DNA of 64,000 nucleotides. It comes from Magnetococcales bacterium. GTDB lineage: Bacteria > Pseudomonadota > Magnetococcia > Magnetococcales > JADFWU01. The notes beneath the pieces are model-generated. The model was not told where the DNA came from, did no database searches, and worked only from the letters and a program-made list of their open reading frames with translations. A program made the position numbers and the translations under genes. Shown one piece after another: positions 1,463-51,600 of the stretch. The stretch lies in assembly GCA_015234045.1 (NCBI GenBank), contig JADFWU010000012.1, positions 8,700-72,699 on the forward strand, in the 5' to 3' direction. Numbering within the stretch: position 1 is the first letter of the stretch; every line of letters begins with the position of its first letter.

Positions 1463-2773
1463 TTGGACGATTCCGCAAATGCTGAGTTGACACGAACAGC
1501 ACTACGCACACTCTATGAACGTGATGAGCGTCCTTGGGTTGTGGCATTTTCCGGCGGTAAGGATTCAACAATCCTCGCTCAGCTGGTTTGTGAAACATTG
1601 GCAAGTTTGGGTGACCGTGCGAACAAACCTGTACATATTATCTCTTCCGATACACGGGTTGAAGCACCCAATATTGAGAATCACCTGAATAATACGATGA
1701 ACCAAATCAGTGCGTATGCCAAACGCTCTGGCCTTCCTCTTCACGTTGAGTTGGTTCAACCTGATCCACATGAGAGTTTTTGGGGCCTTCTTATTGGTAA
1801 AGGATATCCAGCACCAACGCGTTGGTTTCGCTGGTGTACATCCAAAATGAAAATCAAGCCCATGCGCCGCAGTATGGATAAGATTGCGGCACAATACGGC
1901 AGCATGATTCTGCTTTTGGGTACGCGACGTTCTGAAAGCCCTGAGCGTGCCAAACGTATTCAGGATAGAGCGTTAACCGACGCAGGACTCAACCCGCACC
2001 ATGAAATTCCCAATGCCTTGGTAGCCACACCAATCGTTGATTGGGATACGGAATCAGTCTGGGAATATTTACTCTCCAATCCACCACCCTGGCAGGGCAA
2101 TCACCGTTTCCTTTATGACCTTTACCGTCAGGCAGAGGGTGGAGAGTGTCCTGTAATCCTTGATTTAAGCCAACCCTCATGCGGCGGTAGTCGCTTTGGT
2201 TGCTGGACCTGCACAGTGGTCAAGCTAGACAAATCCATGCAGGGATTTATTGAGTCTGGTGAAGAGTGGATGCGACCGCTGAATGAGTTTCGTAACTGGC
2301 TCAAAGAGGTGCGTGAACGTTCAGATTGGAGACAAGCCAAGCGGCGCAGTGGTGTTATTGTTGAAGGGCGATTGGGACCATTTAAACCGGAAAAACGCAA
2401 ACTTATACTTGAAAAGCTGCTTCAACTTGAAAAGACGTGCAATAAATTATTGATCAGCGATGAGGAATTAGGTTATATTCAATCGGTATGGTCAGATGAA
2501 TTTGATCTGTCACGAAATGCAATTTTGGATCTATGTAAAAATTATGATCGCTATCCCAACCTTTGGGAGGATATCATGCCAATGGATTTTCAAGACGAAT
2601 TGTTAGAACGAATGATCGTTGAAAATAGTCTAGAGCCTGAACTTGCTCATGGTCTGTTGAAATTAGCATATGAGTATCATCATAACCTTGATCAGTATGG
2701 AAAAAAGACTGCTTTTACAAATGAGATCAGTTCGATTATTGAACGTTCAGCAACAAATGCGGAAAATGCATAA
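1463..2773 (+). CDS. dndC: DndC, phosphorothioation sulfurtransferase
   Basis: 436 residues. The PP-loop SGGKDST (residues 30-36) marks an ATP-pyrophosphatase of the PAPS-reductase superfamily. Later come RWCTSKMKIKP and, near residue 240, CGGSRFGCWTCTVVKLDKSM, the cysteine signature characteristic of DndC. DndC activates the DNA backbone with ATP and passes sulfur to it, replacing a non-bridging oxygen (phosphorothioation). The start is TTG, chosen because GGAG lies seven bases upstream and no ATG fits before the PP-loop. It is the first gene of a five-gene operon and is followed after three bases by dndD. No cysteine desulfurase (DndA) or DndB accompanies it, so sulfur probably comes from a housekeeping IscS. 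Confidence 0.92.
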   Translation: MDDSANAELTRTALRTLYERDERPWVVAFSGGKDSTILAQLVCETLASLGDRANKPVHIISSDTRVEAPNIENHLNNTMNQISAYAKRSGLPLHVELVQPDPHESFWGLLIGKGYPAPTRWFRWCTSKMKIKPMRRSMDKIAAQYGSMILLLGTRRSESPERAKRIQDRALTDAGLNPHHEIPNALVATPIVDWDTESVWEYLLSNPPPWQGNHRFLYDLYRQAEGGECPVILDLSQPSCGGSRFGCWTCTVVKLDKSMQGFIESGEEWMRPLNEFRNWLKEVRERSDWRQAKRRSGVIVEGRLGPFKPEKRKLILEKLLQLEKTCNKLLISDEELGYIQSVWSDEFDLSRNAILDLCKNYDRYPNLWEDIMPMDFQDELLERMIVENSLEPELAHGLLKLAYEYHHNLDQYGKKTAFTNEISSIIERSATNAENA

Positions 2774-2776
2774 GCT

Positions 2777-4825
2777 ATGATTTTTGAAAAAATTACTATC
2801 TCAAATCTTTTCTCTTATTTGGGAGAAGTTTCGTTTGATTTTACCGGCCAGCAACCGGATCGCCCGATTATATTAATCAGTGGACGTAATGGATTTGGCA
2901 AAACCAGTTTCCTGAATTCAATCAAACTGCTTTTTACTGGTCCCCATGAGGATCTTCGTAACTCTATTGTCAGCAAACGCAAATTAAGCCAAAGACGGTA
3001 CATACTTGGCCAGGGTGAAGAATGGATGGGGGCTTTACACCGCCATGCACGCACACAACTTAACACCCCTCGCTTCTACGTCCAGTGCGAATGGAACGAA
3101 CAAGACGGTGCCGTAACTGCTCTTCGAGAGTGGTTCCCTGATGGGGATTTTAACCCCGATGGAACATTATCTATCCACACTAATTTTATGGATGAGAAAC
3201 TTATAGGGAGTGATGCTCAACAATTCATTGAGAAACGGCTTCCTTCTTCATATCTCCCCTTTTTCTTTTTTGATGGTGAATTGGTTCAACATTTAGCTCA
3301 AGCCAACAAATCACAATTGGCTGATCAAGTAGAAGGAATTCTTAATATTGCACCAATCAATTCATTACTATTGTATTTGAATAAAGTTAATGGAGGATGG
3401 GCTAAAAAAGGTGCTAAAGCTAATGAACAACGCATACTAAATCAAATTAAGCGAGACTGTGAAGAGATAAATGATCAACTCTCTGCTTTGAAAGAGAAAA
3501 ACACAGAACTTAAGCATACCATTGAGTCCATTACAGATCAAATTGAAGATCTTGAAAGACGCATTAGAAGTCTACAGGGATTCGATGCTCAAGAGGAAGA
3601 GACTCAACTCAAAGCAAAACTCATTAGAATTCAAGATGAATTGGCCCAGTTACGAGTTGATGTGGTAAATCTATTCGCTCCTGCTGCACCACTAACAGTT
3701 AACCAACCTCTGCTTGAAAAAATTTCTCTTAAATTAGAACAACATGACACACAATCGCCTCATCCCAACAAAGAGTTTCTAGGCTATCTACGCCGGCATT
3801 TACCACTTCAAGTATTTGATCGCCCAGCCCCAAGTGATGTGCAATTGAGTAGCACTCAATCTCAATTCTTTCAGGATCGCCTCATACAAGCGTTGGATGG
3901 CAGCATTGAGCAAAGTAAAAATGACAAATCAATTCAAGGACTTCCTGTAGAGAAAACGCGTCGCTCAACACTGAAACGCATTTTGATTCCTATCCAAGAA
4001 AATGACCCACTACCTGATCATGCTCAGCGTTTAACTCAGATTAGGCGTCTTTCTCTTCAGCAATCAGAGATTAAACTGAAATTAGAAAATGCTAGCTCTC
4101 TTCACGAAGAAGATAGACATCAGCTTCAAAGTTTACGTGAACAAAAAAATGCTCTGAGTCAACAGAAGGAAAAACATTTACGCGATTCTGGCAGAACTGA
4201 TCTTGAGATTGAACAGAAAAAACGTGACCTTAAGCGTAAACAAATAGAACGCAATGATCAGGAGAAACAAATTGTAAAAGCAAGTAGATACCATGAACTT
4301 TCAAAACTTACAATCAAACTAAAAGATTGTTTTGATGATTATAAACAAGCACTAAGATCAAATCGTCGAAAATCTGTAGAAGAAACAATCAACCGTCATT
4401 ATAAAATATTAATGACCAGTAATGATTTATTACATAAAATCAGCGTAGATGAAAATTTCGGCATTCACTACGAAGATCAAGATGGTGCTTTACTTGGCAG
4501 TGCCAGCCTTTCAGCAGGCATGAAACAGTTGGCAGCAATTTCCCTGCTATGGGCATTAAAAGAGGTTGCTAAGAAATCTGTTCCTATCATTGTTGATACA
4601 CCTTTAGCTCGTATTGACCGAAAAAATCAAGAAAATCTACTACGCTCATATTTTCCTAAAGCATCTGAACAAGTGATTATGTTACCCACTGATTCTGAAC
4701 TGGACCCCACTAAATACAAGATTTTGTCTCCTTTCATTTATCGAGAGTATCAGCTTGACAATCCCAGTGGGGATGGTACGCAAGCACATGAACAGTCGAT
4801 GTATCCAGATGATCAGGAGGCATAA
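2777..4825 (+). CDS. dndD: DndD, SMC/Rad50-like ATPase of DNA phosphorothioation
   Basis: 682 residues, close to the usual DndD length. Walker A is GRNGFGKTS (residues 36-44). A hydrophobic FFFFDGE motif lies near residue 165. Long charged coiled-coil stretches cover about 215-285 and 430-500. The ABC signature SLSAGMKQL (about 577) and Walker B VPIIVDTPLARID (about 600) close the bipartite ATPase head. DndD is thought to supply ATP-driven DNA remodelling or nicking for sulfur insertion by DndC. It starts three bases after dndC, and its stop overlaps the next start by one base (TAATG), so the proteins are almost certainly co-translated. Confidence 0.92.
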   Translation: MIFEKITISNLFSYLGEVSFDFTGQQPDRPIILISGRNGFGKTSFLNSIKLLFTGPHEDLRNSIVSKRKLSQRRYILGQGEEWMGALHRHARTQLNTPRFYVQCEWNEQDGAVTALREWFPDGDFNPDGTLSIHTNFMDEKLIGSDAQQFIEKRLPSSYLPFFFFDGELVQHLAQANKSQLADQVEGILNIAPINSLLLYLNKVNGGWAKKGAKANEQRILNQIKRDCEEINDQLSALKEKNTELKHTIESITDQIEDLERRIRSLQGFDAQEEETQLKAKLIRIQDELAQLRVDVVNLFAPAAPLTVNQPLLEKISLKLEQHDTQSPHPNKEFLGYLRRHLPLQVFDRPAPSDVQLSSTQSQFFQDRLIQALDGSIEQSKNDKSIQGLPVEKTRRSTLKRILIPIQENDPLPDHAQRLTQIRRLSLQQSEIKLKLENASSLHEEDRHQLQSLREQKNALSQQKEKHLRDSGRTDLEIEQKKRDLKRKQIERNDQEKQIVKASRYHELSKLTIKLKDCFDDYKQALRSNRRKSVEETINRHYKILMTSNDLLHKISVDENFGIHYEDQDGALLGSASLSAGMKQLAAISLLWALKEVAKKSVPIIVDTPLARIDRKNQENLLRSYFPKASEQVIMLPTDSELDPTKYKILSPFIYREYQLDNPSGDGTQAHEQSMYPDDQEA

Positions 4826-6327
4826 TGGCTGATATTTTCACCAGTCAAGAAGATGAAAAATCCATTGAGAACATACTCTTAAAAGGGCTTATGGTTAAAG
4901 CACCTAAATGGGTTGTTATGCGCCTTGCTCTAGCTCATTCGCTCAAAATTCTCTCACCACCAGATGAGGAACTGGACCTGATTGACCAAAAAGGATCTGA
5001 ATATCATCTAGAGCAAGTCACAGGTCAGGGGCAAGGACGTAGCAGTTCAACAGGTCAACGCCAGGATTACACCGATGCCTTTCGCGGTTTACTCAGCGTT
5101 TATTCGGATGAAGATCTATTTGCGGATGAGCGCACCTTTAAGAAATATTTGCAACGCCATATTCGGCGTGGTCTGCGGGAATTTCGGAATGGATGGCGGG
5201 ATAGCCACAATTTTCATGAATATCTTTATCAAGAACTGTGTGCAGGGCTGAGCAGTACAACCAATCAAACAGAGACTGATTTCAAGGAACTATTAATTAC
5301 TGCTTTGATGGAGATCGGTATTTCTGGGCAAATCACACAGACCATTGATGGTCCACGCATTACCCGCTACTCAGTGAGATTAGAAGACCCAAATCACCTA
5401 GATCATATTCTCCGAGGGTTGGATAAAATCGCTTTTTCATTGGGCTTGAATAAACATGGTATTTTCCCTGTTGAAACCCAAGAGCGTAAAGTCATCGGTC
5501 TGGATATTCCTCGCCCTCGTAGCGCTTGGGACACCATCTCCGGTGTTCAATTATTGGAATGGGCTCAAAAACCACCAAAGGGGATGATTCTTCCTGTCTG
5601 CTTAGGCGTAAATGTAATCGGAGAACCAATCTTTTTTGATTTAGTCAATCAACCTCATCTTTTGGTTGGCGGTACCACTGGTAGCGGAAAAAGTGTCTGT
5701 CTACACGCTTTGCTTCTTTCTCTGCTGATAGGTGTGGAACATGATCAATTAGAGCTTTTCCTTATTGATCCCAAAAAAGTTGAATTTGCGCCTTATGCCA
5801 AAGCAGGCTCAAAACGTATTACTGTCGTTACTGATATTAAGGAAGCACAGAAAAAACTGAATGCCTTGGTTATTGAGATGGATGCACGTGCCACAGCCAT
5901 GGAACTGGCTGGTGTCCGTGATCTGGCTGAAGGACACAAAAAAGGCGTGATAGATAAACCCTATATCGCAGTTTTTGTTGAAGAATTGGCTGACTTGATC
6001 ATGCAATCCCCAGAGACTGAAGAGCTCTTGATCCGCCTCGCCCAAAAAGCACGTGCCACCGGCATTCACTTAGTTATTGCTACCCAGCGTCCTGATGCTC
6101 GGACAATAAATGGTCTGCTGCGCTCTAATATTCCTGCCCGTATTGCCCTGACCGTTCAAAAGGCTACCGAATCCAAAATTATTCTGGATGAAAATGGCGC
6201 CGAACGTCTCACGGGCAACGGAGATATGTTGACCCGCCTCAGTGGAGAAGAACTATTACGTGCCCATGGAGCGTATGTAACCGTTGATGATATTAAAGCA
6301 ACTGTACGTAATGAAGGGAGACACTAA
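4825..6327 (+). CDS. DndE-like domain fused to FtsK/SpoIIIE DNA translocase
   Basis: 500 residues. Residues 1-115 resemble the small DndE protein: KAPKWVVMRLALAHSLKI, a diverged linker, then an FKKYLQRHIRRGLREF helix. After this come the FtsK beta domain (GPRITRYSVRLEDPNHLDHI) and the RecA-like motor, with Walker A GGTTGSGKS near 282, LIDPKKVEFAPY, VFVEELADLIM and ATQRPDARTINGLLRSNIPA. The C-terminal FtsK gamma (DNA-orientation) domain is absent, as are the N-terminal membrane segments, so this is a soluble cytoplasmic motor. DndE binds nicked DNA in canonical Dnd systems; the fusion suggests modification or scanning coupled to translocation. AGGAGG precedes the ATG by four bases. Both neighbours overlap it by one base. 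The FtsK call is certain; the DndE call rests on motif likeness and gene order. Confidence 0.85.
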   Translation: MADIFTSQEDEKSIENILLKGLMVKAPKWVVMRLALAHSLKILSPPDEELDLIDQKGSEYHLEQVTGQGQGRSSSTGQRQDYTDAFRGLLSVYSDEDLFADERTFKKYLQRHIRRGLREFRNGWRDSHNFHEYLYQELCAGLSSTTNQTETDFKELLITALMEIGISGQITQTIDGPRITRYSVRLEDPNHLDHILRGLDKIAFSLGLNKHGIFPVETQERKVIGLDIPRPRSAWDTISGVQLLEWAQKPPKGMILPVCLGVNVIGEPIFFDLVNQPHLLVGGTTGSGKSVCLHALLLSLLIGVEHDQLELFLIDPKKVEFAPYAKAGSKRITVVTDIKEAQKKLNALVIEMDARATAMELAGVRDLAEGHKKGVIDKPYIAVFVEELADLIMQSPETEELLIRLAQKARATGIHLVIATQRPDARTINGLLRSNIPARIALTVQKATESKIILDENGAERLTGNGDMLTRLSGEELLRAHGAYVTVDDIKATVRNEGRH

Positions 6328-7475
6328 TGGAACCAACCATCTTAATACGTTCCTGCACTCCCATTGCGTTAACCGCAATTGGCATGGGACCATTTCAGGA
6401 AAAACCATTTCATTTGGAGTTTTTAAACCGAGAAAAAGAAAGCTGTAATTTTTTTCTATTAATCTCTGCTAATGCACGAGGAAAAACCACCCTGCTGGAA
6501 GCCATGACAAATCTGATGGCACTCCTCGATCCAAAAGCAACGCCTGCCTCACCACAAAAACGACTGTGGTCTAACCCTAGAGCCTGTGCCCAGTTGGATC
6601 TTCGGCTTGTTGTTAACATGGATGGAGTAGTCCGTGAAGTTCTTCTAACTCTGGCAGCCGGTCCAGGCAGACCGCATGAGATCAGAAGCTGGGAAAACAG
6701 CACTTTGCGAGAGGTGCAAACCGAGCAACATCTGTGGATTTCATGGAAACGTTCTCCAGGTGGTCATTGGTCACTGGAAAAGTCCAAAGATCCGCTGATT
6801 GATGAATTACGCGCCCAAGTTGGCATGGAGATGGAGAATGTTTATGAAACATTCGGACCTGATTCCATTGCCGTGCCGTCCCTACTCTACTTCGATGCCT
6901 ATCGAGATATTCCTACTGTTGAAGATCGAAATGAATCCATCAGCCGACCACCAGAGTGGGTGTTTCGCCCACACCACCATTTTGGATTACGTGGTGATCA
7001 GTGGCAACATAGTTTGGATAACCTGCTTGTTTGGCTGACATGGCTGGATGATGGGCGTGATAAAGAAGTTCAAGATCTACTCAATCGCTTTGTCTTCACC
7101 GGTACAAATAAAAAACTTAATCCAATTAGCCGTCAATATATGGAAGCGCGTGTTTCAAGTGGTGAAACCACTCATATGCTTGACCAACTCTCCAGCGGTG
7201 AAAAAAGTCTTGTACAATTATTGCTCAGGATACACCTACATTTAACTGAAAACTGCGTCATTCTGATTGATGAAATAGATGCACACCTACATGTCAAACT
7301 ACAACACCGCCTATATCAAGCCCTTAAACAGCTCATTCGAGAGAATCCCAGTATCACTCTCATTGCTACTACCCACTCCATGGAATTGATAGATCAGTTC
7401 ACCACTGATATGGATGCCGGAGAACCACTTCTCAGGCTTGGTGGACACCTTATTGATCTTGACGAAATTTATTGA
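6327..7475 (+). CDS. ABC/AAA15-type ATPase, AriA-like, paired with DUF4435 protein
   Basis: 382 residues. The nucleotide site is an unusual Walker A, ISANARGKTT (near residue 50), where the first glycine of GxxxxGKT is replaced. An ABC signature LSSGEKS (about 290), Walker B CVILIDEIDAHLH (about 312) and the switch histidine in ATTHSME (about 350) follow. This is the AAA15/21, OLD-like architecture, without long coiled coils. An ATPase of this sort directly followed by a DUF4435 TOPRIM-like protein is the layout of PARIS (AriA/AriB), where the ATPase senses a phage trigger and releases the nuclease. Here it is the fourth gene of the dnd operon, overlapping its upstream neighbour by one base. 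Role in defence is inferred. Confidence 0.75.
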   Translation: MEPTILIRSCTPIALTAIGMGPFQEKPFHLEFLNREKESCNFFLLISANARGKTTLLEAMTNLMALLDPKATPASPQKRLWSNPRACAQLDLRLVVNMDGVVREVLLTLAAGPGRPHEIRSWENSTLREVQTEQHLWISWKRSPGGHWSLEKSKDPLIDELRAQVGMEMENVYETFGPDSIAVPSLLYFDAYRDIPTVEDRNESISRPPEWVFRPHHHFGLRGDQWQHSLDNLLVWLTWLDDGRDKEVQDLLNRFVFTGTNKKLNPISRQYMEARVSSGETTHMLDQLSSGEKSLVQLLLRIHLHLTENCVILIDEIDAHLHVKLQHRLYQALKQLIRENPSITLIATTHSMELIDQFTTDMDAGEPLLRLGGHLIDLDEIY

Positions 7476-7490
7476 TAACGGAGATTTATC

Positions 7491-8396
7491 GTGGGGAATT
7501 TTGCCAAAACAAGTATTTCTAAAGCAATTAATAAACAGTATTCAAATCGAGTGATATTATATTTAGAATCAAAAGAAGACTATGATGTTTTTAAAGAGCG
7601 TTGGTACAAAGACTGGGGCGAATGGATCGATTTTAAAGCTGTGGATACACCAAAAGGTGGAGATGGCGGCTCCTCTCAAGTTTATCGACAAGTAGAATAC
7701 GATCGAGAAAATAATACGCCTGCCTTTGGAATTGTTGATCGTGATGCATTTCTCAATGATTTTATCTTTCCTGATCAAATGGATCAAATCTCATTTTTTG
7801 AATCCGATCATAGTGTTTTTGATAATATTCAAGTCCTTGAAAACCACATTAAAGTGCTGCGTCGATGGGAGATAGAGAACTATCTTCTTCATCCTGATGC
7901 CATTGCGAAATTAATAGAAAGTTGTGAAAATAACGAGGGAAAATGCGCATCAAATCAAGCATCTCAATGCTTATTGGACTTCTCTGATACCGCTATTCTA
8001 TTATCAGCTGCAATTTTAGTTCTCATGAAAGAAAAAGAGAAAGCTTTTACAGATAACTTTGGCAGAGATGCTACTAACAACGTAGAACGAAAAAAAATAA
8101 TTATTGAATATTTAGAAAAGCGTGATATCAAGAATATTGAAGATAAATTAAAAGAAATGATAAAACGCATTCATACATTTCAGCGTGAAGAATCATGCTC
8201 AGAAGAAGCACGATGGAACCAACTCAATCATTTAATAAACGGAAAAGTCTTCCTCACCCAATTTTGTCACTGGCTTGGCTTCAAAGATCCCAGACGATTA
8301 GAGCTAGCTGGCAGGATTCGGGACGATAAATTAATTGATCCTGAAATCCAAGAGTTCATGGACTCTTTGCAATCAAAAGCCAAACTATTGAGTTGA
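7491..8396 (+). CDS. DUF4435 TOPRIM-like (AriB/OLD-type) putative nuclease
   Basis: 301 residues, starting with GTG seven bases after GGAG. The N-terminal ILYLESKED (Glu26/Glu29), the acidic pair in GIVDRDAF (Asp83, Asp85) and RWEIENYLL (about 125-133) follow the DUF4435 pattern: a TOPRIM-type metal site of Glu plus DxD, then a conserved helix. In PARIS the equivalent AriB is the toxic effector nuclease; OLD-family TOPRIM domains cut DNA. It is the last gene of the phosphorothioation operon, 15 bases after the ATPase. The gene is visibly richer in A and T than dndC, which hints at separate ancestry for the pair. Substrate (DNA or tRNA) cannot be told from the sequence. Confidence 0.72.
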   Translation: MGNFAKTSISKAINKQYSNRVILYLESKEDYDVFKERWYKDWGEWIDFKAVDTPKGGDGGSSQVYRQVEYDRENNTPAFGIVDRDAFLNDFIFPDQMDQISFFESDHSVFDNIQVLENHIKVLRRWEIENYLLHPDAIAKLIESCENNEGKCASNQASQCLLDFSDTAILLSAAILVLMKEKEKAFTDNFGRDATNNVERKKIIIEYLEKRDIKNIEDKLKEMIKRIHTFQREESCSEEARWNQLNHLINGKVFLTQFCHWLGFKDPRRLELAGRIRDDKLIDPEIQEFMDSLQSKAKLLS

Positions 8397-8426: not shown

Positions 8427-9326
8427 CTAACTAAGTGGATCAGCCTCACTCAGGGCCAAGAACTCGCCTTGATGCAAAGTCTCCGCACAATTCGGTGGTA
8501 GGAATCGTTCTTTCAGCCCCTGAGCATCGGCCAGTTCCAAAACACGATAATCCCGTTTGGCGAGGAAATCAGAGAGGTCCTGGCGTTCGATGGTCCAGTT
8601 GAGCGGCTCATCCTTGAACATCAGATAGAGCTTCAAAAGAGGGCCGGTATTGTTGTATGCCGAAGTCATGGGAGAGACAGCGGAAAACACGAAACGCACA
8701 GGATGATCGGTCAAGCGTCGTAGGCTTTCCAAAAGCGTATCCACAGCACCAATGTCCAGATACATCAATACGCCTTCGCAGATAAATAGCGTCTTTCTTG
8801 ATGCATCGAATCCGTCGAAACCCTGCAACACCTCCAACAAAGCCCGCTCACTCAGATCTACCGGTAATAGGTGCAGATTGCTGCCCTGCTGCTGTCCGGC
8901 TCCGGCAAGAGCCGCCTGTTTGACTTGGCTGGTGGCTGGGTGATCAATTTCAATCAGTTGGATCTCATGCTTATTCAAATGCAAGCGCCACAGTAACGTA
9001 TCAAACCCTGCACCCAAACTGACAACTTGTGTGACGCCCTGTTCAATGGCCTGCATGGTCACTTGTTCAATGAACCGTTTACGCAGTGCATAATGAAGCG
9101 AGATGCCCGGCATAATCAGCCGTTCTAAAATAGGCAATGCACCACGAAACAGAGGATTCGCCAACTGCTTGAGACGGCGTTGGCCTTCTGGAGAACCTTC
9201 TAAAATGCGCGTACAAACCTCAGCTGTTTCCGGTGTAACCAGATCAAGATGGCCGCGACTGCGTGCCGTGTGAACCAATCCTTGCAGAACAGTGAATGCC
9301 GTAGAGCTTGCTTGATCTTCTTTCAT
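8427..9326 (-). CDS. SAM-dependent methyltransferase, leucine-carboxymethyltransferase-like family
   Basis: 299 residues. The SAM-binding motif VVSLGAGFDTLLWRL, the acidic strand end LIEIDHPATSQVKQAAL and ICEGVLMYL identify the LCMT/PPM1-like class I methyltransferase family. Bacterial members are mostly O-methyltransferases acting on carboxyl or hydroxyl groups of small molecules, often next to polyketide or NRPS genes. It converges on the phosphorothioation operon, with only 30 bases between stops, and is divergent from the patatin gene. No signal peptide; cytoplasmic. The substrate is unknown; an NRPS nine kilobases away makes a biosynthetic role possible but not shown. Confidence 0.82.
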   Translation of the reverse strand: MKEDQASSTAFTVLQGLVHTARSRGHLDLVTPETAEVCTRILEGSPEGQRRLKQLANPLFRGALPILERLIMPGISLHYALRKRFIEQVTMQAIEQGVTQVVSLGAGFDTLLWRLHLNKHEIQLIEIDHPATSQVKQAALAGAGQQQGSNLHLLPVDLSERALLEVLQGFDGFDASRKTLFICEGVLMYLDIGAVDTLLESLRRLTDHPVRFVFSAVSPMTSAYNNTGPLLKLYLMFKDEPLNWTIERQDLSDFLAKRDYRVLELADAQGLKERFLPPNCAETLHQGEFLALSEADPLS

Positions 9327-9461
9327 GGTTCACCATTGCGCTGTTAGGGGAAATCAGCCGGAAATAAGTGTATAATGCCTCACAATCCCATTGTCACCAA
9401 TGGTCTACGTTATAAGCATTATCCCTCATAGTTGATAGATTTCACAAAGGTATCGATCCGC
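9327..9461. promoter_or_regulatory. Divergent intergenic region with a -10 candidate
   Basis: This 135-base gap lies between two divergent genes and must hold both promoters. On the plus strand a perfect TATAAT (9371-9376) lies about 85 bases before the patatin start, but no good -35 box stands at 16-18 bases from it. AAAGG at 9446-9450 is the likely ribosome site of the patatin gene. Confidence 0.35.
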
Positions 9462-11669
9462 ATGGCGTCCGTTGGCCACCTGTCTGAAGAGACATACAAT
9501 ACGATTCTCCAGTCCAGTATATTTCAGGGCCAGAACGCGACACTCATGCGCCATCTCCTTGCCGATGCCAGAGAATGGCACTGCAAAACAGGACAGTTCA
9601 TTGCCCAGGGACATACGCCTCAAGAGATGCTGTTTTTATTGCTCAAAGGCGAGCTGGAAACGATTCCTGTGGATGGGACATCTTTCTTTGAAGCAACACC
9701 GCTGACACCGGGTACCCTGGTGGGCACACCGTCAGCTTGGGATGGCCTGTTATGGTCTGATTCGATCCGCTGCCGGAGCGCTGTCCATGTGGTGAGCATC
9801 ACTCTCTCCTCCTTGCGCGTGGCTGCGCGTGATTATCCTGAACAGCTGGGTCGGATTGCCGAATTTCGCGCTCTGATAGCGGATCAAACACGCCTGAATG
9901 GCGCATTGCAAAATAATGGCACAGCATTGCATCTGGATCAGGACGCAATCCGCGATTTAATCACCATCATGACACTGCGTAGCTATACCGGTGGCAGTAC
10001 CATTTTTCATTATGGTGATCAGGGTGATTCTCTATTGATCGTGGTCAGTGGACGACTTCGGGCCTCACGTATGGGTGAGGATGGACAACGCATTTTGTTC
10101 AACGATTACGGTCCTGGCTCCAGCGTGGGAGAGTTAAGCGTCATTCTTGAAGTGACCAGACAGGCAGATATCACAGCGGTTCGTGATTCCACTGTCGCGG
10201 TATTGAATCGGAAATTATTTGCCCGCATTCTGACCAAACATCCTGTTGCCATCAACCAAGCCTTTTCTCGGGTGATTTTTGATCACTTAAAAATCACTGA
10301 CGAGCCGAAACGACGCTACTCCCGCGTCATCACCCTGGTTCCTTTGCAATCAGTCAATCAAAGTCAGGATGTGGTGAGAAATCTGGCTAAAGCGCTTGAG
10401 TTTCATGGATCGGTCAAATACCTCACCCAAGCTCAGGGAGAAGCATTGTTGCCGGAAAAAGGCGGCAACACCCACTTTATTGAAGAGTTGGCCGAGCTGG
10501 AACAGGCATATGACTATGTTATCCTGGAGGGCAGTCATAAATACTCTCCGTGGACCCGTCAATGCATACGGCAATCGGATCATCTGCTGTTTATCGCTCA
10601 TGCCCTCGCTGACCCAGCACCAACCACTTTGGAACAAAAACTGATCCAGGAACCATGGTACGATCTACTGCACAAAAGTCTGATCCTAATCCACGATCAA
10701 GACAGTACTTTTCCCGAAAACAGTGCACACTGGTTGGCAGCACGTTCTGTTGAACGTCACTACCATATGCGCCAAGGAGATCATCAAGATTTTCAACGGC
10801 TGGCCCGATTTCTGATCGGCAAGGCCATTGGCCTTGTACTGGGTGGTGGCGGTGCCAGAGGCTTGGCTCATTTGGGACTGTTAAGAGCCATGTCCGAGTT
10901 GGATATTCCGATAGATATGATCGGTGGCAACAGTATTGGTGCCTTGATTGGTGCCAGCCATCTGACCGGCTTTACCGGTGATGAAGTGCTTGAGAATATT
11001 ATCCGTTTTTCCACCAGTGGTCAGCGTCCCGGACTGCCGATTCTATCCTTGATATCCGGCGTACCCATGGCCAGAGCAACCCGAAAGTTTTTCGGACAAC
11101 GGCACATTGAGGATCTGTGGATTCCCTATTTCAGCGTCTCTTGCAACCTGAGTCGTGCCGACCTCAAAACCCATGGTTCTGGTCTATTATGGCAAGCGGT
11201 ATTGGCCAGCAACTCACCCGCAGGACTGTTGCCTCCCGTGCCTGATCAAGGTGACCTACTGGTTGATGCCGCTGTACTCAACAACGTACCCGTGGATGTA
11301 ATGCGACAGCGCTTGGGAGAGGGCCAAATCATTGCCATTGATGTCAATATCCGTGATGAGTTGACTGTTGATCCCACAGCGACCCAACTCTCCGGCTGGC
11401 AGGTACTCAACGAGCGGTTCAACCCACTGAACAAAGCATCCTCACGAACACCGGGCATTATGGATATCATCACCCGCACCAGTATCATCGGTGCCGTGGC
11501 CCAACAGACCAAAACCCGTCAACTGGCGGATCTCTACCTCCAACCGCCGGTATCCGAGTACCCACTGTTTGGATTCCGCCATGGTGCCGATATTGTCGCT
11601 GCGGGATACCGCTACGGACTCAAAAAACTCTCTGCATGGTGGCAGGAACAAAACAGCACATCACTCTGA
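9462..11669 (+). CDS. NTE-type patatin phospholipase with two cyclic-nucleotide-binding domains
   Basis: About 735 residues. N-terminal residues ~20-130 form a degenerate cNMP-binding fold and ~150-280 a better one (IFHYGDQGDSLLIVVSGRL, then GSSVGELSVI). A Rossmann-like linker region (LVPLQSVNQSQDVVRNLAKAL) follows. The C-terminal patatin domain has the oxyanion loop LGGGGARGLAHLG, nucleophile elbow GNSIG, and catalytic Asp in VDAAVLNN. This matches neuropathy-target-esterase-like lysophospholipases, which hydrolyse membrane (lyso)phospholipids under cNMP control. I prefer the ATG at 9462, with AAAGG eleven bases upstream, over an in-frame TTG at 9432 lacking a ribosome site. Its last bases overlap the convergent radical SAM gene by nine bases. 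Confidence 0.88.
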   Translation: MASVGHLSEETYNTILQSSIFQGQNATLMRHLLADAREWHCKTGQFIAQGHTPQEMLFLLLKGELETIPVDGTSFFEATPLTPGTLVGTPSAWDGLLWSDSIRCRSAVHVVSITLSSLRVAARDYPEQLGRIAEFRALIADQTRLNGALQNNGTALHLDQDAIRDLITIMTLRSYTGGSTIFHYGDQGDSLLIVVSGRLRASRMGEDGQRILFNDYGPGSSVGELSVILEVTRQADITAVRDSTVAVLNRKLFARILTKHPVAINQAFSRVIFDHLKITDEPKRRYSRVITLVPLQSVNQSQDVVRNLAKALEFHGSVKYLTQAQGEALLPEKGGNTHFIEELAELEQAYDYVILEGSHKYSPWTRQCIRQSDHLLFIAHALADPAPTTLEQKLIQEPWYDLLHKSLILIHDQDSTFPENSAHWLAARSVERHYHMRQGDHQDFQRLARFLIGKAIGLVLGGGGARGLAHLGLLRAMSELDIPIDMIGGNSIGALIGASHLTGFTGDEVLENIIRFSTSGQRPGLPILSLISGVPMARATRKFFGQRHIEDLWIPYFSVSCNLSRADLKTHGSGLLWQAVLASNSPAGLLPPVPDQGDLLVDAAVLNNVPVDVMRQRLGEGQIIAIDVNIRDELTVDPTATQLSGWQVLNERFNPLNKASSRTPGIMDIITRTSIIGAVAQQTKTRQLADLYLQPPVSEYPLFGFRHGADIVAAGYRYGLKKLSAWWQEQNSTSL

Positions 11670-14138: not shown

Positions 14139-17100
14139 TCAGCCCTTACGATCCAAACAATGCCGTACGCTTTGCACCAACTTTTGCAGATATTTTCCAC
14201 GGGTCATGCCTGCATGTCCACCCATGACATCCTTGATCACAAGTCCCTGAGGAAAATAGCGCTGTCGCCGTCCAAACATCCGCCAGGACCAACCGGACAT
14301 AGGCGTACCTTGTATCAATATTGCCAAACCTGGATAGGGCTGATGGGCGGATTGATTCAAGGCCCGCAACTGGATCTGTAGCCCTGAATCCCCAAAACGC
14401 CGGGTTAAATGGAATCGACGTCCGGTCATTTTGACCATCGCACTGATCAAACGATAACCCCAATAATAAACCGGAATCAGGGTGGGATAGATGGTATCCA
14501 ACAAGATAGGCGGCCCTGGCTTCATCCCCTGTTCAGTAAGCAGCTGTCCCACAAACAAAGCGGCCGATCCGCCAATGGAATAACCACCGATATGAATCTC
14601 CTGTTCGGTAGTGAATTGACGAATACAGCGCACATAACGAACCGCCAACTGAGCCATGGAAGGTGGCCCATCCTCATCAGAATAACAACCCGGCGGTTGG
14701 AGCAGAAAAAAAGGATATTGAGGGCCGAGCGCCTCTGCAATACGTCCCAATCTTTGCCGGTCTCCCAAAGCGGATGCAATACAAAAAAAGGGAGGGTTCT
14801 GCTTGATTCCCGGCAATATGGGATTCAACACCATGCAGGTGACTTCATCAATCAGCCCCTGCCCGTCTGTCTGAGCCGAGGCGCTACTGAGTGAACCTTG
14901 CTGTTGCGCCTGGATAATCTGTCCGATAGCCGCGATGGTAGGTTGTTGAAAAAGCGCCCGTAGCGGCAACGTAACCGCGTATTTTTTCTCCATCTCCGCC
15001 ATCAAGGTGAGAGCGGATAAAGAGTCACCACCCAGGGTGAAAAAATCGTCATGAACACTGATTTTTTCTTGGGACAGCACCCCTTCCCAAAGAGCCAGCA
15101 ACTCCTTTTCCAAAAGCGTATCAGGCGGAACAATCTGGCGTGAGACGGCCTTACTAATTTGCGGTTTGGGCAGTTGAGTGTAATCCACTTTGCCGTTGTC
15201 ACTCAGAGGTAAAGTTTCTACGATTTGAATAACGGAAGGAATCATATAATCCGGCAAACGCTTGCGTAAAAAATGGCGCAATGCTTTCTCTGAGAGTATG
15301 AGAGAATCTACAGCATCTTGGATCACATAGGCTGCCAACACCTCACCGTTTCCTTGATTTTCAGGCAATGGAAACAGCTGTACAGCGACCAACTGCACCG
15401 CAGGATGCTGAATCAAAACCGACTCGATCTCTTCCAGCTCAATACGATACCCACGCAACTTGACCTGTCGATCCATACGTCCCAGAAACAACAATTGACC
15501 ATCCGCTCGCCATTGCCCACGATCACCAGTGCGATACATGCGCGCACCGGCAACAGGGCTGAAGGGATCAGCAACAAACTGCTTTTCTGTCAACTCAGGA
15601 TGATTCAAATACCCTTTTGCCAACGCCGAACCACCAATATGTATCTGCCCGGATTTACCAATAGGAACCACCTGCCCTGCCCGGTCCAACACATAAATTC
15701 GACTATGATCAAGGGGTTTTCCCAACGGAAGATAGCCCGTTTCCAAACTTGGATCACCAGCCCAACAGGTGGCTAGAATGGTTGCCTCGGTAGGTCCGTA
15801 GAAGTTTAATAGACGACAGTTCAACCCCTGTTGAACCTGTGTAGCCAGCGCAGCAGATAGCGCCTCACCACCACTGGTTACGATGCGCAATGCCTCCAAT
15901 TTACAAGCTTCGGCACCTTTTACAAAACCATCCAACATAGCAGGAACAAGGGATAAAATCGTAATCCTATGCGCTTCAGCCAATGTTGCCAAAACCTGGG
16001 GCGTTTGCCGCCCTGCTGGAGGCAACACCAGACACGCACCAATACTCAATGGCAGAAAAATTTCATGGGCTGCCGGATCAAATCCCAAGCGGAAAAACTG
16101 CAACACACGATCCGCAGCGCTGATTTGCACTGTTTCTGCCATCCAAGCCAGCCGACAAGCCAAAGCCCAATGTCCAACCATCACACCCTTTGGCTGACCG
16201 GTCGTGCCCGAAGTATGGATCACATAAGCTAACGTATCACGCGCTTCAGAGAGTGGCGGATCGCTTTCAAACCCTTCCAACTCAAGCCCCTCAGGCCAGA
16301 ACGGGAATGCTGATTTCAACACAATGCACTTACAAGATAGCCCTTGCAGCAAAGCCGCCTCTTCCTCAGAGGTGATCAGTAACGCAACACCAGCAGTTTC
16401 ACACATCGCTTTGATACGCGCTGGTGGATGTTCTGGATCAAGGGGCAGATAACCGCCTCGCGCCTTGAGGATAGCCAATACCGCAACAATCATGGCGGGT
16501 GAACGATGAATACAAATCCCTACCGCGCTGTTCGATCTCACACCCAATTCGATAAGGTGGTGCGCCAATTGATTGGCCGAGCGGTTTAAATCTCCATAAT
16601 CCATTGAATGATCTGCCCAACGGAGCGCTTCAGCATGTGGTGTCAGCTGTGCTTGATGCTCAAACGCTTGATGGACCGGCATCCATGATGAGACATGCGC
16701 GCCCTCTATTGCGGGATTGAAGCCTGAAACAATCTGTTCTTTCTGAGCTGGTGGCAGAAAATCCAACCGTCCCATAGGTCGCTCGGGATGAGCCATAACC
16801 GCATCAAGTAAATGCCTGGCCCGCTCTACCATCAAAGAGCGCTCTTCGGTTGGAACACGATCACGATTGAATTCAAACAGCAGTTGAATATCCTCATCAG
16901 GATGGTTTTCCAGAATAGTAACCAACAGAGCATGAGAGCCCAATCCAGAAAATATTCTACTGGAATGGGCAGGGATTCCGTTGAAATCGGTGGTCAGATC
17001 CCATTTATCATGGGTCAAAACGACATCAAACAGGCGTTTCTCTCCACCGGCAAGCCCTGTCATACGGGCGATTTCACCAACGGGAAAGCGTTTATGGCGG

Positions 17101-18044
17101 AAACTTTTCCGCATCTGTTGGATCACGTCGGTTAATAGCTGTTCAAAAGTCTGTTCAGGATTCCAAGTTAGGCGTATAGGATTGAGATCTACCAACATTC
17201 CGGGCGTATTGCGTAACAAACCGCTGCGGTGATGCACGGGGATGCCGATGACCACCTCTCCTTCTTGATCGGATGCCATGAGCAGAGGAACCAGCAATCC
17301 CAGGAAAAGGTGATACGGAACACCTTGGTACTGCTTGCTCCATTTTATAATTTGGTTAAACCTATCGCGAGAAAAACGCAAGGAGAGCGTCTGTACCGGA
17401 CTGGGACACCCTGACTGACCGGGAAACAGAGCTGATACTGGTCGGTCAAACATCGTTTGCCAATAGTCCCGATCTCTGGCAAAAGCCGCTGACTGACGAT
17501 ATGTGCGTTCTGAAGCCAGATAATCCAGATAAGAGGCCCCATTGTGTTGCGGTGGCGCTATTCCTTCCGATAGATAAGAGTAAATCTCGGCCCAGCGCCT
17601 GAGCAGCACTGCGGTTGAAAAGCCATCGCAAATCACATGATGGTATTTGTGGGAAAAAATGCTATACGCATCACCAACACGCGCCAGTCTGAACTGAAAC
17701 AACAGGGTATCATCCAGAGGAAAAGGGCGTGAGAAGCGCTCAACGATCCAGGCCATAGCCTGCTCTTTTTGTGCGGCGGTAAAAGACTTTATTTCCAGCT
17801 GTGGTTTTGGATCAGCATGCCAGATCTGTACAGGTGCCGCGCCTCTGGCTGAAGGAATCAGGCGCAGTGCATCCGTTTCTCTGACCAGCTGTATCAGGGC
17901 CTGTTGCAGCAAAGCAGGATCTAATCCCAGTGCAATTTGTCCGAAGCCACCGACAACAAGGTGATGGGAATCAACACAAAGCAGCTGATCCAACCACAGG
18001 TCCCGTTGATTGGCGGCCAGCGCGTAAGTGTGATCCTGATCCAT
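14139..18044 (-). CDS. Single-module non-ribosomal peptide synthetase (C-A-T-TE)
   Basis: 1,301 residues from the ATG preceding LAANQRDLWLDQLL, the usual condensation-domain opening; the frame extends upstream 35 codons without support. Condensation domain ~1-440 with intact HHVICDG (135-141). Adenylation domain ~460-960: A3 HTSGTTGQPKGV near 610, NFYGPTEATI, YRTGDRGQW, GRMDRQVKLRGYRIEL and LPLSDNGKVDY. Its pocket starts at FDPAAHEIF in place of the common FDASVWEIF. Carrier domain FFTLGGDSLS (Ser near 1006) takes phosphopantetheine. Thioesterase ~1070-1300 with GYSIGG and a late His in MGGHAGM. The assembly loads one amino acid, condenses it with a donor made elsewhere and releases it, so N-acyl amino acids or small amides are plausible products. 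Substrate is not predictable by eye. Confidence 0.93.
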   Translation of the reverse strand: MDQDHTYALAANQRDLWLDQLLCVDSHHLVVGGFGQIALGLDPALLQQALIQLVRETDALRLIPSARGAAPVQIWHADPKPQLEIKSFTAAQKEQAMAWIVERFSRPFPLDDTLLFQFRLARVGDAYSIFSHKYHHVICDGFSTAVLLRRWAEIYSYLSEGIAPPQHNGASYLDYLASERTYRQSAAFARDRDYWQTMFDRPVSALFPGQSGCPSPVQTLSLRFSRDRFNQIIKWSKQYQGVPYHLFLGLLVPLLMASDQEGEVVIGIPVHHRSGLLRNTPGMLVDLNPIRLTWNPEQTFEQLLTDVIQQMRKSFRHKRFPVGEIARMTGLAGGEKRLFDVVLTHDKWDLTTDFNGIPAHSSRIFSGLGSHALLVTILENHPDEDIQLLFEFNRDRVPTEERSLMVERARHLLDAVMAHPERPMGRLDFLPPAQKEQIVSGFNPAIEGAHVSSWMPVHQAFEHQAQLTPHAEALRWADHSMDYGDLNRSANQLAHHLIELGVRSNSAVGICIHRSPAMIVAVLAILKARGGYLPLDPEHPPARIKAMCETAGVALLITSEEEAALLQGLSCKCIVLKSAFPFWPEGLELEGFESDPPLSEARDTLAYVIHTSGTTGQPKGVMVGHWALACRLAWMAETVQISAADRVLQFFRLGFDPAAHEIFLPLSIGACLVLPPAGRQTPQVLATLAEAHRITILSLVPAMLDGFVKGAEACKLEALRIVTSGGEALSAALATQVQQGLNCRLLNFYGPTEATILATCWAGDPSLETGYLPLGKPLDHSRIYVLDRAGQVVPIGKSGQIHIGGSALAKGYLNHPELTEKQFVADPFSPVAGARMYRTGDRGQWRADGQLLFLGRMDRQVKLRGYRIELEEIESVLIQHPAVQLVAVQLFPLPENQGNGEVLAAYVIQDAVDSLILSEKALRHFLRKRLPDYMIPSVIQIVETLPLSDNGKVDYTQLPKPQISKAVSRQIVPPDTLLEKELLALWEGVLSQEKISVHDDFFTLGGDSLSALTLMAEMEKKYAVTLPLRALFQQPTIAAIGQIIQAQQQGSLSSASAQTDGQGLIDEVTCMVLNPILPGIKQNPPFFCIASALGDRQRLGRIAEALGPQYPFFLLQPPGCYSDEDGPPSMAQLAVRYVRCIRQFTTEQEIHIGGYSIGGSAALFVGQLLTEQGMKPGPPILLDTIYPTLIPVYYWGYRLISAMVKMTGRRFHLTRRFGDSGLQIQLRALNQSAHQPYPGLAILIQGTPMSGWSWRMFGRRQRYFPQGLVIKDVMGGHAGMTRGKYLQKLVQSVRHCLDRKG

Positions 18045-18293
18045 GTAGAATTCTAATATCAGAGAGGAAAATGGAATGCGCCATCCACAGCGTATTGTTG
18101 GGCAGTGCCGCGTTACGCATGCTCGACCCGTTTCATATGCAGAATACAACCACGCACTCTACCACGGGCACCAACACAACGGCAAGTTCATCAGACACAT
18201 AATATGGAAGTATTTCCAATGGTTATGTACCATACACATCAACAGAGACATGGTAAATTACCGGAGTTTATCTCTCTTAGGAATATCTATAAC

Positions 18294-48604: not shown

Positions 48605-51600
48605 TCAGGTCATATCGACAAAGTTTTGCGTGACAGTGTCATCAATCAGCAAGGTTGCCGAGTCGAGGGTATACGTACCATAGGTGATGCTATCAATCAC
48701 CGTATCGGTTTCGGTATTCCAGATACCACCGATATTCACCGTATCACCGGCATCACCCGTGATGATCAACTGATCACTCTCATCGGAAAGATCCAGAATA
48801 TCAGCAAGATCCAACGTGACACTGTTGTCACCAGAACCGGTCAGATCGATATTCTCAATGCCTTTATAGAGGGCATTATCAATCTGTGTCAGGTCCAAAC
48901 TCAACGCATCTCCATCCAACATCAGTGTATCATCGTCGGCACCACCATCGACGGTGCCAAGATCCAGACTATCCCAGACCAGGATATCATCACCAGGCCC
49001 ACCATTCAGGATGTCATTACCAAGCCCACCATCCAGGTAATCATCACCATCACCACCCATCAAGGTGTCATCACCGATACTACCCTTCAGTAAGTCATCA
49101 CCACCATACCCCATCAAAGCATCAGCGCCACTACTGCCCAACATGGCATCATTACCCTCTGTGCCTAACTGCGTCAGCCCGCCTTGAGCACCAGAATCAT
49201 GAACCGTGATACCAATGGTTCCAGAATCAGAAAGCCCACCCTGATCAGTAACGGTATAGCTAAAACTATCCGTGCCGACAAAGCTGGTATCCGGTGTATA
49301 GGTGTAGGTGCCATCGGTAGTACTGAAGACCAATGTACCGTGGGTAACATCAGCATCCAGAGCAAAATTCAACGTGCTAATGTCATCATCCACATCATTG
49401 TCAATGACAGTGTGGCTGATGGCTTGATCCATACTGGCCAATATGACACCAGCTGCATCAACACCCCCTGTGGAAGCCACAGAAGCCTGATTCAAAGCGG
49501 ATAAACCGGTGAGATCAGCCATATCAAAGTTACCAATCAGATTGGCATCACTGACATCCAGTGACTGATACATGTTCTCTCGGATTTCTTCTTCAGAGCG
49601 GATGGTGTCCCAAATACGCACTTCATCCAGATCACCGTTCAAGGTTTGGTCCAGATTGGAGTTACCGCCGATATACAGTCGGCTATTGCCTCCATCGGTT
49701 GGATCACCATTAGAATATGTGCCGGAACCAACCAACACGCCATCCAGATAGAGCGTGACCTCATTGGTGGTAGCATCTCGAACCAAACTGACATGGTGCC
49801 ACGCATCGGTAGTCAAGTTGGTATCAAAGGTTACCTCATTCAACAGGATATCCGTTCCACTCTCATGGAAGTAGACCAGATCACCATTCACATCCACTTT
49901 TAGCGCATAGTAGGCGTTATTGAGATATGTCGTTATCCCCTGCTCATGGAAAGCCATCAGGAACTGTTCATCCGTTCCAACCGCGTCCAAACGAACCCAG
50001 GTTTCCAGGGTCAGATCACCTGCAATAGCAAAGGCATCCAATGTTCCACGACCTGCGTCTACCACATCACCGACACCATCCAACGTAAGATGATCACCCA
50101 ACGTTGGAATTGCAGGCGCATCGTTGATTGGATTGATATTGACGGTCACCTGCTCGGTATTGTGACCGCTGTATTGATCATGGACATTGAGCGTGAATGT
50201 CTCACTGCCATCAAAGTCAGGATCGGGCGTGTACGTCCATGCACCAGTTCCAGGATCAACAGTGAGCGTACCGTTGATCGGTGCCTCTTCAACACCAAAG
50301 GTAAGCGCATCTCCTTCTTCATCTGTAGAGGTAATACCACTTGTGATCGCGGTATCTTCGTCCAGACTGATCGGAGAACCATCCTGAACCGTCATGCTGG
50401 GCACAAAATTAAGTGCTGATGTTTGTGTGGTATCACTGAACGCAGTAGTACCACCACTGGTTGAAACAGTAATGTTGATATCACCACTGGCATTACTATC
50501 ACTCTGATCCCACAAACGGTAGGTCAGATTGGCGGTAGAGCCACTGGTATAGTCAACAGTGCCTTCATAACGCAGCAGTGCATCACCATCCAGCAACGTT
50601 GCTGTGGCATCGGCCAAAGTGCCAAAGGTATTCCAGTTGGTGCCGCTATCCGTGCTGTACGCCCAAGAACCATTGGTCTCAGTGAGTCCGGTAATGGCAA
50701 CACCCAGCACATCACCATCCGGGTCCGTGCCGATCAAATCAACAAAGTCTGAAACCAGAACACCGCTCGTGCTCACTGTTACAACATCATCAGGCATCAT
50801 GATGGCTGGGCCTGCGATATCCGAAACCGTTGAGACAACAGATCCAGCCCAATCTGCATCACCACCACTGGTTCCGACCAGATTGTCCGCAACACCGCCG
50901 GTACTTTCATCAAGCGGCCAGTAACCAACCAGTCCCTCTTCAGCACCACTCAGCGTGCGGAAGATATCCGATTGAATATCCGCCTGTGTCCGACTGACAT
51001 CCCAGACGCGCACCTCATCCATATCACCATCAAAGTAGTTGCTGCCCGCTTCATCCCGTCCAATAGTCAGAATCCCGTTCTGACCGCCGGAAAGCGGGTT
51101 AACATAGTCCAACCTACCGGCCAGTTGACCATCCAGGTAGAGCGTGACGGTTTGGTCAACACTGTCACGGGACAGTGCCACGTGATACCAGGTATCGGAA
51201 GCGATTGGTGGATTATCAAAGGCAAGTGTTTCGAAGGATTCTGCACCATACTCCTGCACAAGCGTGAACGTACCATCAGAGTCAATTGAAAGGCTGTAGA
51301 GCGTATTGTCCACATCCGCCGCCGCACCACCGCTGAAACAGACAATAGGATGGCTTGTGGTACCCAAAGTTGGTTTAACCCAGGCTTCAATTGTCAGATC
51401 TTCAGTGATTACAAACGGCTGACCAACACCACCACCCGCGTTCAGATACTCGGAAGTACCACCCAGTGTGACATGACGGGTAAACGACTCAAAATAGGGC
51501 GCATCCTGAGTACCAGTCACCGTGACATCAATGACAGCGTCACTACCTCCGCCCAATTCATCGCTGACACGCACGGTAAAGCTATCAGCACCGAAGAAAT

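Follow-up and report, generated by a model that had tools for sequence, protein, structure and literature searches.

The window, the whole stretch of 64,000 nucleotides analysed here, belongs to a Magnetococcales draft genome of 3.65 Mb. It contains five genes, all on the plus strand, at positions 1463-2773, 2777-4825, 4825-6327, 6327-7475 and 7491-8396, which encode, in this order, DndC, DndD, a DndE::FtsK fusion, an ABC ATPase of the OLD/PtuA/AriA class and an AriB-type Toprim protein (DUF4435). A previous sequence-only reading had placed these five open reading frames at the same coordinates, strand and spacing, all of which were reproduced. Its claim of a single operon was supported by the co-directional arrangement with spacings of 3, −1, −1 and 15 nt from dndC to the Toprim gene. 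Terminator-like sites within the operon were not in excess over shuffled sequences. The G+C content of the operon was 42% versus 48% for the remainder of the window, which fits a transfer-borne acquisition.

Just 5' of dndC, a tRNA-Pro (GGG) gene was located (1234-1361, +), followed by a hairpin and T-run recognised by eye, which should isolate the tRNA gene from the operon. Use of this tRNA gene as an island attachment site was ruled out, since its 3' end is not repeated elsewhere in the window. An Rfam search returned a tRNA as the sole match, and neither a reverse transcriptase nor an msr-msd element was seen. Farther along the window, a single-module non-ribosomal peptide synthetase with condensation, AMP-binding, carrier and thioesterase domains is encoded at 14139-18149 (−), and an open reading frame of 5121 amino acids at 48605-63970 (−) carries laminin-G, cadherin-like, bacterial Ig and RTX calcium-binding repeats, which predict a giant adhesin-like protein of the RTX type, secreted or at the cell surface.

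Profile searches named every component proposed from the letters alone, namely DndC, DndD, DndE, FtsK, AAA_21/AAA_15 and DUF4435. The dndC product (1463-2773, +), a PP-loop sulfurtransferase, scored 354 bits with TIGR03183 (cut-off 290) and 407 bits with the PADLOC DndC model, and its FSGGKDST loop and GCWTC cysteines are intact. Its C-terminus is fused to an Sp-DndD-like domain (residues 375-428; 2585-2746, +), which was recognised with a profile of 10 free-standing copies; searched against 2233 open reading frames, this profile matched the window DndC with 22.5 bits (E = 2.9e-6), and it also matched the corresponding place in other DndC proteins of the window type. The curated Pfam Sp-DndD model gave no detection in the window DndC, so that the assignment relies on the purpose-built profile together with the position of the match. 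Sp-DndD is found as a separate gene of about 65 codons between dndC and dndD in Marinobacter, Methylobacter and Aureimonas, and just 5' of the module's ABC-ATPase gene in Rhizobium and Mesorhizobium. The gene identities in the sequence-only reading consequently stand, with the Sp-DndD domain, as matched by our own profile, as the part it had overlooked.

The dndD product (2777-4825, +) is a coiled-coil ABC ATPase with intact Walker A, Walker B and signature motifs, scoring 268 bits with TIGR03185 (cut-off 246). Despite the top PADLOC scores deriving from PbeC models (PbeC 385 bits, DndD 298 bits), no C-x(1,2)-C motif was present among 22 aligned DndD proteins, and an identity as a zinc-hook (CxC) ATPase was ruled out for want of the motif. 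In the third protein (4825-6327, +), a DndE domain (residues 6-121; Pfam DndE 31.9 bits, cut-off 25) precedes an FtsK alpha domain (residues 147-229; FtsK_alpha 28.9 bits) and an FtsK motor (residues 254-495, approximately; FtsK_SpoIIIE 140 bits); seven further genomes of the order contain such fusions at 65-72% identity. DndC, DndD and DndE, by which a Dnd system is recognised, were thus found within one operon, with DndE as the FtsK fusion. DndB was not found in the genome by a search whose control worked. No DndF, DndG or DndH gene is among the operon genes. DptF/DptH-type matches were absent genome-wide, a weak negative, the search being equally silent in all control genomes.

The fourth gene (6327-7475, +) encodes an ATPase with 62.5 bits for AAA_21 and 43 bits for AAA_15, in which the signature, Walker B and switch histidine are intact and the alignment revealed a variant Walker A, SANARGKT. 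The structural model (pLDDT 90) aligned over its whole length with PtuA (retron-Eco7 and Ec78) at Z 22 (22.4); against AriA, Z was 17.6, so the modelled fold lies closer to PtuA of retrons and Septu than to AriA. Using PADLOC, the window ATPase scored 64 bits as AriA; of four further members scanned, two had PtuA as their best model. The label 'AriA' is, therefore, less certain for this protein.

For the fifth gene (7491-8396, +), the DUF4435 score was marginal: 27.2 bits, with the cut-off at 27, and 25.9 bits when the genome was searched. The PADLOC AriB model gave 43 bits. Structure prediction resolved the call: a confident model (pLDDT 88) matched AriB best (Z 14.6 over 249 residues), with OLD Toprim domains next (Z 8.6). 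A profile search against PDB sequences yielded nothing useful, the likeness to AriB being visible only by fold comparison. Among 25 aligned homologues, E26 and D83 were invariant and D85 nearly so; the E26 codon (7566-7568, +) aligns with the catalytic glutamate of the Toprim fold, and the E26A exchange inactivates AriB in PARIS (PMC12409363). AriB grips its tRNA through lysines K60 and K64 (PMC12409363); equivalents are not apparent in the glycine-rich loop of the present protein, whose substrate may accordingly not be tRNA.

According to the published rule, PARIS is called from an adjacent AAA_15 (at least 32 bits) or AAA_21 (at least 27 bits) gene and a DUF4435 gene (at least 27 bits). The two genes in the window lie 15 nt apart and reach 43 bits for AAA_15, 62.5 bits for AAA_21 and a marginal 27.2 bits for DUF4435; the AriB-type fold and the invariant E26/D83 agree with PARIS as well. 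Of the AriA/AriB-like pair proposed from sequence, the layout and the AriB-type Toprim were upheld, while the AriA identity of the ATPase is doubtful (PtuA Z 22.4 vs AriA 17.6). 'PARIS-like' remains a fair label for the layout and the nuclease.

To place the pair in context, the genomic neighbourhoods of the ATPase subfamily were surveyed. At least 37 loci were counted, in Magnetococcales, Gammaproteobacteria, Accumulibacter, Desulfobacterota, Rhizobiales and one more proteobacterial family, and DndE::FtsK is encoded directly upstream in 33 of them, including one degraded copy on plasmid L045. The Toprim gene follows the ATPase gene at every locus whose contig extends far enough. Within the Magnetococcales, all eight DndE::FtsK loci (window counted) adjoin the ATPase and Toprim genes in the five-gene order. 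Alignment of the ATPase against 84,980 species genomes revealed at least about 20 full-length relatives with 34-67% identity, below which the matches fell abruptly to generic ATPase fragments; the loci were from Thiocystis, Marinobacter, Methylobacter, Accumulibacter, Halochromatium, Thiorhodococcus, Desulfobacterota, Rhizobium and others, nearly all with the order DndC-DndD-DndE::FtsK-ATPase-Toprim. Carriers available in culture include Marinobacter koreensis and Thiocystis violacea. In the order of Halochromatium, a strong DndE::FtsK match was obtained in 13 of 210 genomes (14 loci), and the pair was present at 13 of the 14. Among 72,556 plasmid records there were two ATPase matches, both directly 3' of DndE::FtsK. 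Viral carriage was rejected, as a scan of IMG/VR yielded only partial, generic ATPase matches.

Across loci, neighbouring genes between dndD and the Toprim gene lie −8 to +30 nt apart. The same order with like spacing in several classes places the layout beyond chance and rules out an annotation artefact. Pairwise distances of the five proteins were correlated for every combination of two components (r = 0.81-0.96, p ≤ 5e-4), which in part reflects shared ancestry. In the tree of the fusion protein, a Desulfobacterales copy is nested among those of Chromatiaceae and Accumulibacter, pointing to movement of the operon between phyla as a unit. Hence, the pair recurs with Dnd, in the five-gene order, in distant genomes, and its Toprim member is of the AriB type by profile and by fold; on these two points the sequence-only reading had staked its proposal.

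This distribution bears on the possibility that the pair is an independent PARIS-like guard, which would by itself sense phage anti-restriction (DNA-mimic) proteins, such as the Ocr-like ones that trigger PARIS, and be merely co-transcribed with Dnd as a back-up. The narrow agreement of DUF4435 with the PARIS rule, the survival of the pair alone or without the Dnd core at L059, L063 and L265, and the precedent of PARIS modules in BREX loci (PMC12839542) speak for such a guard. It should, however, adjoin many systems, whereas this subfamily stands behind DndE::FtsK in 33 of at least 37 loci and co-varies with it, and its ATPase is closer to PtuA than to AriA. We consider an independent guard unlikely. 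The near-exclusive linkage and co-inheritance suggest instead that the trigger signal would pass through the Dnd machine.

The association has exceptions in both directions. The DndC-DndD-DndE::FtsK core occurs without the pair in G170, G813, Aureimonas, R. phaseoli and B. glumae. Such core-only loci often include a TusA sulfurtransferase gene, and G194, a congener of G170, has both the pair and TusA. TusA genes were observed 3' of the DndE::FtsK or the Toprim gene at L047 (10227-10463), L048 (10263-10466) and L214 (about 9892-10131), and TusA is a possible sulfur donor for phosphorothioation in Dnd systems of the DndE::FtsK type. In G813 (L252, 3761-5589, −), a short GIY-YIG-nuclease-like gene and a DGQHR (DndB-like) gene, both identified by eye, replace the pair. 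Conversely, L059 and L265 contain the ATPase-Toprim pair without Dnd genes; at L265 the pair (9175-11265, +) adjoins a gene for a protein that by eye resembles FHA-domain proteins. In Thiomargarita (L060), the order is DndD-ATPase-Toprim-DndE, without FtsK. The pair is thus separable, yet when present it is nearly tied to the Dnd core; the dependence is not absolute, given a core that occurs without the pair and a pair that occurs twice without Dnd.

Partial losses were informative in the same respect. G016, a genome rated 100% complete, has no DndC match genome-wide, and only the Sp end of dndC remains, with dndD, dndE::ftsK and the ATPase and Toprim genes all open. In Halochromatium, the last third of dndC is left and the same four downstream genes are open. 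L063 retained dndC, and dndD and dndE::ftsK persist only as remnants, with the ATPase-Toprim pair open; an HNH_2 gene (8782-9714, +) occupies the deletion site, with the remnants on either side. At L033, L037, L038 and L069, dndC is broken by internal deletion, 5' loss or a stop codon, downstream genes being mostly open, a pattern that reads as repeated loss of the modification enzyme. L033 combines a dndC deletion with a TAG in the ATPase gene, and L038 carries a TAA in dndC. The loss loci stem mostly from draft metagenome assemblies, and with other copies visibly decaying, their open frames may be recent survivors.

The sequence-only reading had proposed that the modification state, or phage attack on it, gates the effector. 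Gating by modification state was not supported, as the pair is open in G016, Halochromatium, L063, L059 and L265; phage attack may be the gate. Apparently, neither unmodified host DNA nor loss of the Dnd core releases the nuclease, and since its gene and that of the ATPase stay open where the DndC catalytic domain is missing, where DndD and DndE::FtsK are missing and where the two occur by themselves, phosphorothioate (PT) is probably not the antidote. The simplest reading of the retention of the pair in G016, Halochromatium and L063 is that the ATPase itself would restrain the Toprim protein and that the trigger would be a positive infection signal.

The same loci weigh on the interpretation of the pair as the restriction arm of an ordinary PT-based restriction-modification system, which would cut PT-free DNA directly while PT protects the host, as with DndI and DndFGH. 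Its co-operonic position with modification genes accords with this interpretation. The fold matches include class 2 OLD proteins (Z 8.6), which are described as Toprim nucleases, and other PT effectors, such as DndI, act in this way (PMC11662687). Against it, G016 and Halochromatium keep ATPase and Toprim genes open with the DndC catalytic domain deleted, the closest fold, AriB, is that of a tRNA nuclease, and profiles revealed no PT-reading domain in either protein. Conventional PT restriction is, in our view, a minority possibility. Much less probable is a PT-independent translocation alarm, in which DndD and DndE::FtsK would scan DNA and signal to the pair, with dndC optional. The two loci that lack the DndC catalytic domain with the remainder open, the fusion of a specificity protein to a DNA translocase and the description of PT-less ABC-DndE systems (PMC10853773) are consistent with it; yet most loci have a dndC with intact PP-loop and cysteines that co-varies with the rest, and the dndC losses may be recent decay.

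The likeliest explanation, to which we give about even odds, is a Dnd anti-invader operon with a dedicated, ATPase-caged and infection-triggered Toprim effector pair. In this preferred mechanism, DndC (including the small protein fused to it), DndD and DndE::FtsK would form one machine, in which DndE might read the sequence, DndD loop or clamp the DNA, FtsK translocate and DndC insert sulfur. By analogy to PARIS, the ABC ATPase would assemble with the Toprim nuclease and keep it inactive until, upon infection, it frees or activates its partner, whereupon the nuclease would cut either DNA or, like PARIS, tRNA, and the infected cell would stop. The trigger could reach the ATPase via the Dnd machine, as might happen if a complex of DndD and DndE::FtsK stalled on invader DNA or was blocked by it or by an anti-restriction protein. 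A bolder version, which we hold to be rather doubtful, is that the DndE-guided FtsK motor and not the PT mark is the sensor arming the PtuA/AriA-class ATPase and the AriB-type Toprim protein, with modification dispensable. If true, a DNA-modification machine would double as an invasion alarm in a translocation-coupled abortive immunity.

DndFGH is missing from the majority of genomes that carry Dnd modification genes (PMC10853773). For the purpose of Dnd modification in such cases, the operon offers a testable answer, a conserved effector pair on the same transcript; the operon, which by its genes would tag DNA with sulfur, seems to come with a kill switch of its own, in a layout that recurs in distant bacteria. 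Two separately studied fields, Dnd and the PARIS/OLD-type suicide nucleases, are thereby joined, and the natural losses of dndC, of dndD-dndE::ftsK or of the pair are ready-made deletion mutants for dissecting the control hierarchy.

The DndE::FtsK fusion itself is already published as clade-3 HerA/FtsK (Rakesh et al. 2024, PMC10853773 and its ref. 24), and the association of PARIS-like OLD-ABC/Toprim pairs with BREX as back-up effectors is likewise known (PMC12839542). We found no description of a Dnd operon with a built-in ATPase-Toprim pair; the 2020 ABC-ATPase classification (ref. 24 of PMC10853773), which lay outside the search, may show one. The clade-3 HerA/FtsK Dnd systems share with the window a DndD-related ABC ATPase next to DndE::FtsK together with DndC and Sp-DndD, but the main text of PMC10853773 contains no reference to a downstream OLD-type ATPase and Toprim protein, and the nucleases near Dnd genes given in that main text are HKD, HNH, REase, URI, HEPN and PIN, with no Toprim. 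The related operons of Aureimonas, R. phaseoli and B. glumae, unlike that of the window, are without the pair. With DndCDEA-PbeABCD, the operon shares an ABC ATPase, DndE and a small protein common to the modification and effector arms, and Mesorhizobium and Rhizobium have a separate dndC-dndD-dndE set before the window-type module; it differs in lacking the CxC hook and PbeA (no gene for an HKD nuclease with SF2 helicase is present in the operon or adjacent) and in its effector, an ATPase with a Toprim protein. The ATPase fold is that of Septu and retron-Eco7 PtuA (Z 20-22), but the partner is a Toprim protein and not the HNH nuclease PtuB. PARIS is similar in its adjacent ATPase and DUF4435 Toprim genes, in the AriB fold over nearly the full length and in the conserved catalytic Glu/Asp, and dissimilar in that the window pair sits in a Dnd operon, its ATPase is nearer to PtuA, its Toprim protein is only about 10% identical to AriB in the structural alignment, and the tRNA-holding lysines are not evident. 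The BREX-recruited OLD-ABC/Toprim modules (PMC12839542) resemble the window pair as a back-up suicide pair within a modification-based defence locus; here, however, the pair is hosted by Dnd and belongs to a near-exclusive subfamily, not to the generic one.
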